Assembly: GCA_003139095.1 (NCBI GenBank)
Contig: PLHW01000008.1
Location: forward strand, 313,652-377,651
Length of the DNA: 64,000 nt
Source of the DNA: Acidobacteriaceae bacterium
Lineage (GTDB): Bacteria > Acidobacteriota > Terriglobia > Terriglobales > Acidobacteriaceae
Reading direction: 5' to 3'
The notes under the pieces are model-generated. The model was not told where the DNA came from. It saw only the letters and a list, made by a program, of their open reading frames with translations, and searched no databases. The position numbers and the translations under genes are program-made. Positions within the stretch are counted from its first letter, which is position 1, and every line of letters begins with the position of its first letter. Below are positions 32,799 through 36,520 of the stretch, one piece after another.

Positions 32799-34166
32799 AT
32801 GCCCATACCTTACCGCGGTTCAAGAAGTAAATGTTTTCTACGGCGGCGAAATGCGCAGGTTGCTTTTTTCGCGGCGATTCTCATCACGACTTTGGTGTGC
32901 AGCACGGCAATAGCCTGGTCCCAGTCCGCGCCCGCGGTCCAGCCGTCATCGCCTCCCTCGCTCGGCGAATCGATTAAACGAGCCAACCTCGAAAAAAGGC
33001 AGCTTCACATTTTTTACGTCCATGGAATGGCGGCCGACGGGCCCGGCGCATCCGCCTCCGCCGGCCTGAGAAAAAGCATTTGCAAGTTTCTCCGCGATTG
33101 CACACCGCCGGGAGGCGTGTTTGATGGAACCGATTACGCGGACCGAAAAGACTTCGCTCTGAACACGCCGCCTCCTGACTTGAAGTACTTGGGGCGGCCG
33201 CTTTGGAACAGCGGCGCGGGTGGGGCATCGGAAGATTGGAACGCTTCGGCGCCCTACGTCGATCACTACAAGATCATCCGCCGAGGCGCGCCACCCATCT
33301 ATCTCGACGAAATCAACTGGTGGCCGCTGGTGTTCGCCGCCAAATGCCGGCAGATTTTGGCCGCAGACGCGGCGCTCGCCGGTCCGGTAAAAACTTACAT
33401 CCACACCTGCTCTTTGCCGGCGACGCCCGATCCCGACGCGCAGAAAAATCCCGGCAGGTTTCGCTCGTATCCGTTTCTCACCGACGCGCAGCGACTCAAC
33501 GCCCTTCCCACTAAGGGCGCAAAGATCAATCGCTATCTCAAAACCTTTGTGCTTGACTGGGGCTTTGCCGACGCGGTCATGGCGGTGGGCCCGATGCGCC
33601 GCCTTTTTCTCGAGGGCATTGGAGAACTGATTCTGAAGTCGGTTAGAGTAGGCGACGACGGTTCGCGCGGCGAGTCCGTCACTCCCGCCACAGATCAGGA
33701 ATTCGTGATCGTTGCGCATAGCCTCGGCAGCTACCTGATGTTTTCCGCGCTCGACATTCCGCCCAATCCGGCTACGCCCCCAAAATGGAGAACGGAATTC
33801 GATCGGGTTCTCACAAACACTGCCTCTGCCTACTTTCTCGCCAACCAAGTGCGGTTGCTCGAACTGGCGGACCTCGACGCCTCGAAGAACCTGAATACGC
33901 ATCTGAAAACCTGGAGCGATCTCCGCGCCGCCGCGCATAAGCCTACGCCGCAAATCGTCGCCTGGAGCGATCCGAGCGATCTGCTCACTTGGAGCGTGCC
34001 GGAACTCGATCCGCAATCGGCGACAGTAAAAAATGACAACGTAAAAAATGCCCCGCACTGGTTCTGGCTGGTCGAAAATCCGAGCAAAGCCCACACCACC
34101 TACGACCAGAACAAGCGCGTGATCGGCGTCCTGCTGCCGAAAAATGAAAGGGAGCCGAAGCAATAA
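32799..34166 (+). CDS. Secreted alpha/beta-hydrolase-like protein
   Basis: 455 residues from ATG 32799, with GGAGAG at 32784-32789. There is a signal peptide or N-terminal anchor (AQVAFFAAILITTLVCSTAIAWS). The oxyanion-hole region HIFYVHGMAADGPG and the nucleophile elbow FVIVAHSLGSYLMFSAL (Ser in HSLGS) suggest an alpha/beta hydrolase. The catalytic Asp and His cannot be assigned with confidence. Several Cys residues in FLRDCTPPGG and YIHTCSLPA could form disulfides. Its stop codon TAA overlaps an ATG (34166) that opens a frame continuing into the aromatic leader peptide downstream. Confidence 0.65.
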   Translation: MPIPYRGSRSKCFLRRRNAQVAFFAAILITTLVCSTAIAWSQSAPAVQPSSPPSLGESIKRANLEKRQLHIFYVHGMAADGPGASASAGLRKSICKFLRDCTPPGGVFDGTDYADRKDFALNTPPPDLKYLGRPLWNSGAGGASEDWNASAPYVDHYKIIRRGAPPIYLDEINWWPLVFAAKCRQILAADAALAGPVKTYIHTCSLPATPDPDAQKNPGRFRSYPFLTDAQRLNALPTKGAKINRYLKTFVLDWGFADAVMAVGPMRRLFLEGIGELILKSVRVGDDGSRGESVTPATDQEFVIVAHSLGSYLMFSALDIPPNPATPPKWRTEFDRVLTNTASAYFLANQVRLLELADLDASKNLNTHLKTWSDLRAAAHKPTPQIVAWSDPSDLLTWSVPELDPQSATVKNDNVKNAPHWFWLVENPSKAHTTYDQNKRVIGVLLPKNEREPKQ

Positions 34167-34261
34167 TGCGCAATTTTTTTCAGTGCGCTGGCGGCCGGGA
34201 AAAAATCTTGCGATCCGACAAATTGTGTGGCAGAGTAAGCGTGGCACAGCAAACGCCAATG

Positions 34262-34363
34262 ATGCGCAATTTTCGATTTACGGATTCGCTGTTTACCTAC
34301 CGCTACTTCCCTTACGGAGTAGCGGCGACGGCGGATCGTGTGTGTGATTCAATTTCGCCTTAG
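34262..34363 (+). CDS. Aromatic-rich leader peptide of the DAHP synthase gene
   Basis: A 33-codon frame from ATG 34262 (a second ATG directly precedes it at 34259) to TAG 34361-34363. Phe or Tyr occupy positions 4, 6, 11, 13, 15, 16 and 18: four Phe and three Tyr in the first 18 residues, with the cluster LFTYRYFPY. The last 15 residues contain none. No ribosome site of good quality is seen directly upstream; the same frame is open from ATG 34166, which is coupled to the hydrolase stop, so a 65-residue version is possible. The aromatic cluster lies over the 5' arm of a hairpin, and the next gene makes the first intermediate of aromatic synthesis. Confidence 0.6.
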
Positions 34364-34417
34364 ACGCATACGAGTTCAGCCCACGCCGCGATCTCCAAAT
34401 CGCGGCTTTTGTTTTTT
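34300..34417 (+). promoter_or_regulatory. Proposed transcription attenuator upstream of DAHP synthase gene
   Basis: Three alternative RNA structures are visible. (1) A perfect 8-bp hairpin, CCGCTACT (34300-34307) with AGTAGCGG (34318-34325), lies over the Tyr/Phe codons. (2) GCGGCG (34322-34327) can pair with CGCCGC (34384-34389); also GGATCGTG (34333-34340) with the overlapping segment at 34387-34394. (3) The terminator, GCCGCGAT (34385-34392) with ATCGCGGC (34399-34406), is followed by TTTTGTTTTTT. Structure 2 uses the 5' arm of structure 3, so they exclude each other. A ribosome stalled on aromatic codons would block 1 and favour 2, giving read-through. Confidence 0.65.
34385..34417 (+). 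terminator. Intrinsic terminator hairpin in the leader of the DAHP synthase gene
   Basis: Perfect 8-bp GC-rich stem (34385-34392 with 34399-34406), 6-nt loop CTCCAA, then a T-rich tail with ten T in eleven bases (34407-34417). It lies 45 bp upstream of the start of the DAHP synthase gene, which is an unusual place unless termination is conditional. Confidence 0.8.
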
Positions 34418-34461
34418 GCGCAACACTCGACAAAGAAGCTCAGGGTCAAAAGGAGACGGCA

Positions 34462-35481
34462 GTGATTATCAACATGATGTACGGGGCGTCAGACGAGCAG
34501 ATCGCGCACGTGATTGCGGTCGTAGAGCACGCCGGGTACCAGCCACACACCATTCGCGGTACCGAGCGCACGATTGTGGCGGCGGTGGGCAGCGGCGGAA
34601 ATCGCATCGCGCTGGAAGCCTTGCAGGCCGCGCCTGGCGTGGAAGAGGTGGTCGCCATCACGCACCCGTTTAAGCTGGTCAGCCGCCAGGTTAAGTCGGA
34701 GCCCACGGTGGTGAATGTGCGGGGAGTGCCCATTGGCGGCGAAGAATTTGTGGTCATCGCCGGGCCCTGCTCGGTCGAGTCGCGCGAGCAATTGCTGGCG
34801 GCGGCGAGGGCGGTCAAGTCCGCCGGGGCGCGCCTGTTGCGCGGCGGCGCGTACAAGCCCCGCACATCTCCCTATGATTTTCAGGGCCTGGGCGAGGAGG
34901 CGTTGCGACTGCTGGCCGAAGCGCGCGACGAAACCGGGCTGCCCATCGTGACCGAAGTGATGAGCACGGAAGATGTCGCGCGCATTTCCGAATACGCCGA
35001 CCTGCTGCAAGTGGGAGCGCGCAACATGCAGAACTTCGCGCTGCTGCGGGCGCTGGCGCGTGTGGATCGTCCGATTCTGCTCAAACGCGGGCCGTCGGCG
35101 ACGGTGAAGGAGTGGCTGCTGGCGGCGGAATACCTGCTCGCGGGCGGGAATCCGAATGTGATTTTGTGCGAGCGCGGCATTCGCACGTTCGAGACCGATA
35201 CGCGTAACACGCTGGACCTGGCAGCGATTGCGCTGGCCAAGGAACTGTCGCACCTGCCCGTGATCGCCGATCCCTCGCACGGAACGGGACGCCGCAGTTT
35301 GATCCCAGCGCTCTCCAGCGCTGCGCTCGCGGTTGGCGCCGACGGTCTCATGATCGAGGTACACCCGTGTCCGGAGCGCGCGCTATCGGATGGGCCGCAG
35401 TCGCTTGATCCGGAAGGCTTCCGGAAGCTGATGCGGAATCTGGCGATGCCATCGCGGACAATGAAGCCGGTAAGCGCGTAG
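34462..35481 (+). CDS. aroF: 3-deoxy-7-phosphoheptulonate synthase (AroAI-beta/AroF type)
   Basis: 339 residues. The start GTG/ATT region follows AGGAGACGGCAG (34450-34461), so translation begins at about 34462. Residues 1-~70 form a ferredoxin-like regulatory domain ([27 protein letters not shown]), and the rest a TIM barrel with the type I-beta motifs: [63 protein letters not shown], and [19 protein letters not shown]. It condenses phosphoenolpyruvate and erythrose 4-phosphate, the first step of the shikimate pathway. Expression may be set by the attenuator directly upstream, in addition to any allosteric control by the N-terminal domain. Confidence 0.94.
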
Positions 35482-35484
35482 ATT

Positions 35485-35508
35485 CCTCCGCTCCGCGCGG
35501 CGCGGAGG
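35485..35508. terminator. GC-rich hairpin after the DAHP synthase gene
   Basis: CCTCCGC (35485-35491) pairs perfectly with GCGGAGG (35502-35508), four bases after the stop codon. No T-run follows, so it may protect the 3' end or only slow the polymerase. Confidence 0.35.
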
Positions 35509-35548
35509 CGTAGAATGCTGGCGTTGTGGGAAGTTGTGGAGGCATGAA

Positions 35549-36520
35549 ATGACTGGAATGAAACTGCGTACCTCAAGACGGCGGACGATTGCCGCAGCGG
35601 TGCTGTTCGTCTGCGTAATAGCGATTCCGCTTGCTCAGGCCCAAAAGCTGGCGGGACCGAACCGGCCTTCGGCGGTGCCAGAGGGCTACGTAATTACTCC
35701 CTTCGGTTACTTTCACCCGTCATGTGTGCGCGGCGTGGGCAGTGGAGAAACTGTGCTGGCGGACGGACGTGTCCAACATGCGGATGGCACGGTGGACGCC
35801 ACCGCTCCTGTTTGCAGTTATCCGCATTACACGGCGCGCGGAGAGGTTGTAACTCGAGGCGGCTCCGAGGCGGGCCCGCTCACGATTACCCATAGCTGGA
35901 TCGAAGATGGCGCCACTACGACCACTACTGCGTACGGCAAACTTACTGCGGACTGGCCCGTGCCCTCTGCGCCTACTACTTATCACGGCCAGACGGTGTA
36001 TTTATTTCCGGGTCTGGTGGACTACCAGACCGACCAGACCATTATTCAGCCCGTGTTGGGGTGGAATTCGTTCTTTGGCGAAGTGTGGAGTATCGCGAGT
36101 TGGAACTGCTGTCCGAGCGGAACCTCGCAATATAGCTCGCCCGTGCAGGTCAGCACCGGCGACACGATCTTTGGACAAATCAAGTCTATGTGCAAGGCAG
36201 GGGTGGAGTCCTGCGCGAAGTGGAAGATTACTACGCAGGATAAGACCACACATAAGAGCACAATCCTAAGTAAAACACCGAGCGAAGGACAGACGTTCAA
36301 TTGGGCGCAGTCGGGCGCGCTGGAAGTGTATGAGATCGTCGAATGCAGCGACTACCCGCCGGACGACGCGACCACGTTCTCCAAGGTCGTGCTGTATGAC
36401 TATAACTATCAGAAGATCGCGAACCCGGGATGGTCGTTCACGGATTACTATAACGGCCTCGATCCGCAATGTAACTACGGTGGACAAGTAAGTGCAACTG
36501 CGGTGACCCTCGATTACTGA
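35549..36520 (+). CDS. Secreted protein of unknown function
   Basis: 323 residues from ATG 35549, with GGAGG at 35538-35542. A signal peptide is present ([22 protein letters not shown]). The mature region is rich in aromatic residues, Thr and Gly: [78 protein letters not shown]. This alternation is compatible with a jelly-roll or lectin-like beta-sandwich. Several Cys residues may pair. No catalytic motif was assigned and I cannot name the family. It follows the DAHP synthase gene by 67 bp, but probably as a separate unit. Confidence 0.65.

Follow-up and report, generated by a model that had tools for sequence, protein, structure and literature searches.

The stretch of DNA analysed here (the window, 64,000 nucleotides from the genome of an Acidobacteriaceae bacterium) very probably carries a ribosome-mediated transcription attenuator upstream of a gene for DAHP synthase. 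The reading was put forward in a first-pass annotation of the window and is upheld by sequence comparison with related genomes, namely by the short aromatic frame, the 2:3 antiterminator pairing, the terminator, the conservation of codons and the folds computed with a masked ribosome. As judged from the same genomes, the element reaches wider than that annotation had supposed, being class-wide at DAHP synthase and present at other aromatic genes in sister genera. The parts of the locus, all on the plus strand and numbered along the window, are the following:

34208 to 34236, plus strand: weak candidate for a sigma-70-like promoter (TTGCGA at 34208-34213, 17 nt, CAGAGT at 34231-34236), the top site among the 70 nt upstream of the leader and absent from a stricter scan.
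34262 to 34363, plus strand: putative leader peptide frame of 33 codons, from ATG (34262) to TAG (34363), read as an open reading frame; an aromatic leader is kept in orthologues.
34271 to 34315, plus strand: putative control codons, Phe at 4, 6, 11 and 16 and Tyr at 13, 15 and 18, with no Trp, read directly; the aromatic columns bear silent changes in 14 related leaders.
34300 to 34325, plus strand: predicted 1:2 hairpin (anti-antiterminator), 34300-34309 with 34316-34325, from the fold and from pair counts in 33 sequences.
34316 to 34327, plus strand: strand 2, the putative 5' side of the antiterminator (GGAG, GCGGCG), from the fold of 34316-34396 and the comparison of own and swapped arms in 93 leaders.
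34330 to 34381, plus strand: accessory hairpin that would bring strand 2 to strand 3, predicted in the minimum-energy fold of 34316-34396.
34384 to 34396, plus strand: strand 3, the predicted partner of either strand 2 or strand 4, from the folds and the arm comparison; 3:4 is kept in 97.7% of cells.
34385 to 34417, plus strand: predicted intrinsic terminator, stem 34385-34392/34399-34406 and T tract 34407-34417, from reading, fold, pair counts and scan.
34450 to 34455, plus strand: Shine-Dalgarno sequence AAGGAG of the DAHP synthase gene, a 7-nt match, read directly.
34462 to 35481, plus strand: DAHP synthase (3-deoxy-7-phosphoheptulonate synthase) with an N-terminal ferredoxin-like domain, the putative controlled gene (NF006421 and TIGR01361 over cut-off; PF00793, PF18152).

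From these parts, and from the conservation described below, we infer translation, stalling, termination and antitermination in the following order. RNA polymerase would transcribe the leader with a ribosome trailing on the short frame. When Phe-tRNA and Tyr-tRNA are ample, the ribosome would pass the aromatic codons and cover strand 2, so that 3:4 could form and transcription would stop near 34417. Under a shortage of charged Phe- or Tyr-tRNA, the ribosome would stall at codons 4 to 15 and cover strand 1; strand 2 (34316-34327) would then take strand 3 (34384-34396), the terminator would not form and the DAHP synthase gene would be transcribed. Most leaders of the class hold Phe, Tyr and Trp codons and could therefore sense each of the three end products where the pathway begins. 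The window leader is among seven DAHP synthase leaders devoid of Trp and should therefore sense Phe and Tyr. The solved relatives of the window enzyme are 4grs and 1rzm, matching over residues 1-327, the latter presumably the DAHP synthase of Thermotoga maritima. The Thermotoga relative of this type of DAHP synthase is inhibited by Tyr and Phe, and by analogy the sensing of these two amino acids in the window would suit an enzyme of that type.

The 33-codon frame and its seven Phe or Tyr codons (4, 6, 11, 13, 15, 16 and 18) lie where the first-pass annotation had placed them, and its structural description also holds in the folds. The perfect 8-bp hairpin 34300-34307/34318-34325 is present and can be lengthened into a 10-pair stem that includes one G-U pair (34300-34309/34316-34325), with an energy of -15.3 kcal/mol and a z of -5.2 against shuffles. 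The perfect 8-bp terminator stem (34385-34392/34399-34406) is followed by the T-rich TTTTGTTTTTT and has a fold z of -3.9; it is the one terminator-like site in 34100-35600, a count by simple scan that is not above chance (shuffles average 1.8). The mutually exclusive pairing of 34322-34327 with 34384-34389 joins GCGGCG to CGCCGC, and the 2:3 fold (-36.7 kcal/mol, z -3.8) additionally pairs GGAG 34316-34319 with CUCC 34393-34396 across the bridging hairpin 34330-34381. The entire leader stretch has a z of -2.6, two of 200 shuffles folding as well. Rfam covariance models, which bear on a T-box or riboswitch reading, gave no match in the window at gathering score, and over 15 loci at E<=1 nothing that covers the leader.

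On the upstream side, the neighbouring gene stops at 34166 and encodes 455 aa with no Pfam or NCBIfam match. The leader frame has alternative in-frame starts at 34259 and at GTG 34241 and is open upstream as far as an ATG at 34166. An exact 12-nt repeat, ATGCGCAATTTT, lies at 34166-34177 and 34262-34273; at its first copy, which overlaps the upstream gene's stop (TAATG), a 65-codon frame starts that runs into the leader. Such a pair is not rare by chance, two matches with at most one mismatch being present in 14 of 100 shuffles. At most of the loci of the genus that were read (L003-L012, L014-L016, L018-L020) a short Flp-type pilin-like gene containing GQDIAEYAVMLAVILVLVIGTVRLIGGNANN adjoins the leader on its upstream side, and the window has the 455-aa gene there instead.

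The regions upstream of orthologous DAHP synthase genes were collected from the genus, the family and the class (114 regions, of which L113 was too short, leaving 113) and scored with a detector that requires at least 5 aromatic residues per 14 codons of a frame, a start codon for that frame and a terminator downstream of its stop. The detector was positive in 84/113 orthologue upstreams versus 1/21 upstreams of paralogues (the 53% paralogues, L030 included), and in 0/113 reverse complements and 0/565 dinucleotide shuffles; stricter settings returned 67/113 and 74/113 orthologues versus 0/21 paralogues. Some of the 29 negatives have frames with four aromatic residues, sub-threshold terminators or leaders more than 400 nt off, the last found by covariance model in L002, L120, L121 and L124. 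Loss of the leader was considered for L120, L121 and L124 and rejected, because the model locates the leader further upstream (L315, L320 and L318, respectively), where it precedes a chorismate mutase gene that in turn precedes DAHP synthase. No leader was seen upstream of DAHP synthase in, for example, L023, L027, L138, L139, L161 and L176. L216 and L217, which belong to another class and have a DAHP synthase 72-74% identical, are also without a leader, and a gene transfer that left the attenuator behind is possible there.

Aromatic frames are also present upstream of DAHP synthase in other classes of the phylum (MPAFPVGPSFSPFVPSYYWYSWYWFSPRG in L233 and MNSRFYFYYFGAFTTGP in L234), with no terminator by the detector. 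Outside Acidobacteria, very aromatic short frames with terminators, such as MNKKFYAFAYNYYYYFTNVK and MASTERLNHFFGFYFGYYYWTQ, precede DAHP synthase in L041 (Calditrichota), in L049 and L052 (deltaproteobacteria) and in L083, L093 and L103 (Clostridia). With the strict detector 13 of 80 loci were positive, 6 of them non-acidobacterial, versus 0/80 reverse complements and 0/400 shuffles; attenuation of DAHP synthase may be widespread.

The code of the leader is conserved at its aromatic positions. In 14 close leaders picked for their MTRF type, pS is 0.61 and pN 0.12 over the seven columns with an aromatic share of 60% or more, versus 0.26 and 0.24 in the remaining columns; picking aromatic columns in itself depresses pN, while the high pS is not built in. 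Codons 2-27 taken together give 0.31 silent and 0.21 replacement change, and the two other frames 0.21/0.21 and 0.26/0.20. In these leaders, as anticipated for an alignment of orthologue upstreams, the aromatic codons are kept and their synonymous bases vary. Among the 93 leaders returned by a laxer detector, Phe is present in 93, Tyr in 84, Trp in 86 and all three in 79. As regards codon choice, Phe is written TTT 77 times and TTC 24 times in leaders L001-L029, and 47 and 136 times, respectively, in the DAHP synthase genes that go with these leaders.

Some leader peptides act by arrest, as TnaC does, and it might be the nascent peptide, or a free aromatic amino acid in the ribosome tunnel, that stalls the ribosome, not uncharged tRNA; a loose RF[ST] motif does recur close to the start of many window-clade leaders. 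Yet leaders of different clades have their aromatic content in common and not their sequence or exact positions, replacement outside the aromatic columns is as frequent as silent change in the 14 close leaders, and Trp codons vary with the branch of the pathway (see below), so that arrest by the peptide is very unlikely and a tRNA-sensing attenuator is the reading retained.

As for the structure, the terminator arm differs by clade (GCCGCGA in 35 leaders, CCCACTC in 46, CCCGCC in 7 and others in 5) and strand 2 varies along with it. Over 93 leaders the mean 2:3 duplex is -16.8 kcal/mol with the leader's own arm, -12.3 with the arms of other clades and -11.2 in mononucleotide-shuffled leaders; own and swapped arms differ with a Wilcoxon p of 6e-15, the own arm is the best over all swaps tried in 40/93 leaders, and in 66/93 at most one of 30 shuffles equals the own duplex. 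Pair counts were made on two alignments, A1 with 33 of the 35 leaders of the window clade (L015 and L122 left out) and A2 with 39 of the 48 leaders of its clade (L024, L135, L142, L143, L157, L166, L177, L187 and L194 left out). The 3:4 stem is paired in 97.7% of cells in the window clade, with 9 cells changed on both sides, and in 99.1% in the 39 sequences, with 19 such cells. For the 2:3 stem, 92.0% of cells are paired in the 39 sequences and 18 are changed on both sides, the number of pairs with double changes being matched by 92 of 500 shuffles. The 1:2 stem of the window clade (33 sequences) is paired in 80.3% of cells with 24 double-change cells, and a version slid by 3 columns in 65.4% with 29; since the slid version comes close, 1:2 is the least secure of the stems, and its number of pairs with double changes is matched by 288 of 500 shuffles. 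Compensatory changes, asked for by the annotation in all three stems, are thus borne out for 2:3 and 3:4, which exceed the shuffled or slid controls on most measures, and are less clear for 1:2. RNAalifold run on the alignments predicted the terminator plus at most one 3-bp stem (in one alignment), and not 1:2.

The switch itself was modelled by masking the footprint of the ribosome, folding the transcript downstream of it as far as strand 3 and scoring the sequestration of strand 3. The mean over 93 leaders is 0.75 with the ribosome at the median aromatic codon and 0.29 with the ribosome at the stop, versus 0.51 and 0.41 in shuffled leaders; the difference exceeds 0.2 in 73/93 leaders versus 15/93 shuffled ones, is below 0.1 in 13/93 and is negative in 7. 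Leaders of the CCCACTC clade show a sharp change (0.88 to 0.29). In the window clade it goes from 0.55 to 0.30, versus 0.56 to 0.40 after shuffling, so that the stalled value is not above that of the shuffles and only the drop at the stop differs. The window leader goes from 0.70 to 0.18 and its shuffles from 0.62 to 0.30. Its profile is uneven, strand 3 being held at 0.81-0.99 with the ribosome at codons 19-20, where in the model folds an extra stretch near 34329-34333 would be able to capture it. In folds free of ribosomes most of the leaders examined, 18 in number, still have strand 3 paired (0.17 to 1.00; window 0.67), and termination in the absence of translation is therefore not predicted.

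Such ribosome-free folds, which leave strand 3 unfreed in many leaders, together with the long spacers between terminator and gene in some relatives (L002, L013, L021), would also agree with a leader that acts on DAHP synthase by way of translation or mRNA stability and with a terminator of secondary importance. This is highly improbable, as the terminator stem is kept, with its T tract, at the percentages given above and the alternative pairing that was found uses the terminator arm itself; both speak for attenuation of transcription.

Two weak points that the annotation had named in its own reading, the lack of a strong ribosome site for the short frame and a stop downstream of strand 2, are real in the window. 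No Shine-Dalgarno sequence is present at its leader, and among the 93 leaders a match of at least 4 nt is found in 12, like the shuffles (15/93), versus 86/93 at the start of DAHP synthase. A -10 box lies 6-12 nt upstream of the ATG, mostly 8-9 nt, in 36/46 leaders of the CCCACTC clade; this placement occurs in 51.6% of the 93 leaders versus 6.8% in shuffles, and in 7/35 leaders of the window clade. From the spacing in the CCCACTC clade, the mRNA therefore probably starts at or beside the leader ATG, a leaderless start that would apply to these relatives and not to the window. In the CCCACTC clade the stop ends a median of 13 nt short of the end of strand 2 and is so placed that a ribosome on it would cover strand 2; in the window clade it ends a median of 28 nt beyond the end of that strand.

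The reach of the element beyond DAHP synthase was followed with a covariance model built from 33 DAHP synthase leaders only (model 1) and searched against 200 genomes of the family. At E<=1 a match is present in 132/200 genomes; 98 matches have E<=1e-4, and 92 of them were examined for the genes behind them, sought with eight reference proteins, the first match starting within about 330 nt being taken. An aromatic gene stands behind 91 of the 92: DAHP synthase in 39 cases, which include training sequences, trpB in 21, chorismate mutase in 17, shikimate kinase in 12 and prephenate dehydratase in 2, with none in the remaining one, so that 52 matches precede genes outside the training set. The other 6 of the 98 comprise 4 that precede DAHP synthase by coordinates and 2 at a contig end; two loci, L262 and L265, coincide with L291 and L292, and each place entered the count a single time. 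NCBIfam or Pfam confirmed the identity of representatives of each gene, those of shikimate kinase and prephenate dehydratase scoring above the Pfam but below the NCBIfam cut-offs. The trpB loci continue with trpA, chorismate mutase and a DAHP synthase where the stretch is long enough, and some chorismate mutase loci with prephenate dehydratase or DAHP synthase; in particular, in genera g31, g33 and g35 trpB, trpA and chorismate mutase precede the 53% DAHP synthase paralogue, which lies 2.3-2.5 kb downstream of the leader. Fourteen genomes have two copies at different operons, some second copies with E from 1e-4 to 2e-3. Among matches weaker than E 1e-4, 28 of the 34 examined have no aromatic gene, and the line was therefore drawn at that value. 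Four weak matches (L295, L298, L351 and L346) have in common a small frame whose last residues are GVLLYE or LLYE; no aromatic gene follows it, and it is perhaps the end of some conserved gene plus a terminator.

A second covariance model (model 2), made from the CCCACTC clade and run over 299 genomes of the class, gave 97 full-length matches at E<=2.4e-6, of which 66 are directly before DAHP synthase; 20 of the other 31 were examined, of which 17 likewise precede DAHP synthase, 2 are truncated and 1 has no such gene behind it. From both searches, copies at other operons are therefore seen only in the family of the window.

The codons of these leaders follow the operon behind them. Trp is present in the first 22 codons in 22/22 trpB leaders, 17/17 shikimate kinase leaders and 32/39 DAHP synthase leaders, versus 1/19 leaders of chorismate mutase or prephenate dehydratase (a total of 97 leaders, including 6 taken from matches weaker than 1e-4, the leader being in every class the most aromatic frame); trpB versus chorismate mutase or prephenate dehydratase gives a Fisher p of 9e-11, relatedness not being corrected for. 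The sole Trp-bearing leader of the Phe/Tyr branch, L287, was kept in the count; its frame is probably wrong, and the frame at the start of the model is without Trp. The tracking of the branch by Trp codons is a prediction of tRNA sensing and not of chance or of structure alone.

This also bears on a reading in which an ordinary terminator of the upstream gene meets a chance aromatic frame, with the promoter of DAHP synthase lying downstream of it. The window leader without Shine-Dalgarno sequence, its weak promoter and an upstream gene ending at 34166 would be in keeping with that, but the chance controls, the codon conservation, the match of strand 2 to strand 3 across clades and the branch-matched codons nearly exclude it, and it is the least probable of the alternatives to attenuation.

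It is rather probable that in several sister genera much of aromatic synthesis (DAHP synthase, shikimate kinase, chorismate mutase, prephenate dehydratase and tryptophan synthase) is under one homologous family of attenuators, which would have spread by copying and been retuned by codons, with Phe, Tyr and Trp at the common steps and trpBA, and Phe and Tyr alone at the Phe/Tyr branch; in the window's own genome the DAHP synthase copy alone was found. There, model 1 returned the window leader plus one further match (L295, contig C63, E 0.045), taken as false because no aromatic gene is behind it. The detector found no leader at trpE, trpB, shikimate kinase, prephenate dehydratase and chorismate mutase of this genome (for all but trpE, in the 700 nt before the match), and at these genes and two DAHP synthase paralogues the model run without filters reached a best E of 0.2. 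The window leader, being the sole one found in its genome, is therefore a single-copy member of the switch family.

Among known systems close to the element are the attenuators of trp, pheA and pheST in enteric bacteria (PMC11802643). Their four-strand layout is shared by the element in the 2:3 and 3:4 pairings and in control codons on strand 1, and less securely in 1:2; they differ in that the window clade has strand 2 inside the frame, the stop about 28 nt past it and a leader without Shine-Dalgarno sequence. In Corynebacterium glutamicum the aroR leader stands before aroF, a DAHP synthase gene, and acts by attenuation, so that aromatic leader peptide, mechanism and target are alike; AroR has Phe-Tyr-Phe and responds to Phe and not to Tyr, in another phylum (PMC11802643, PMC3890552), whereas here 79/93 leaders hold Phe, Tyr and Trp and relatives stand at further operons. 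An attenuator 'sensing tyr-tRNA' is given for Shewanella aroF in PMC2659441, with the same target but in gammaproteobacteria and as a prediction. The trpL of Sinorhizobium meliloti, the Trp leader of trpE(G), has an mRNA starting at its own ATG, as PMC7298713 describes; here a leaderless start is suggested by the -10 boxes of the CCCACTC clade (36/46), not of the window. In the literature searched on attenuation and leader peptides in Acidobacteria, mostly openly accessible texts, the element was not found described. The mechanism is classical; new are the phylum, within that literature, the up to three aromatic amino acids read, the position that strand 2 takes in window-clade leaders and the homologous copies across one pathway in sister genera.

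The finding provides a target, a likely signal and a testable mechanism across a class of soil bacteria. The leaders at different operons constitute a natural experiment, in which the codons predict the amino acid shortage that switches on each operon, and the set may reveal how attenuators spread within a pathway. If the family reading is true, aromatic synthesis in these genera would form a protein-free regulon, with every leader naming through its codons the end products that it serves.
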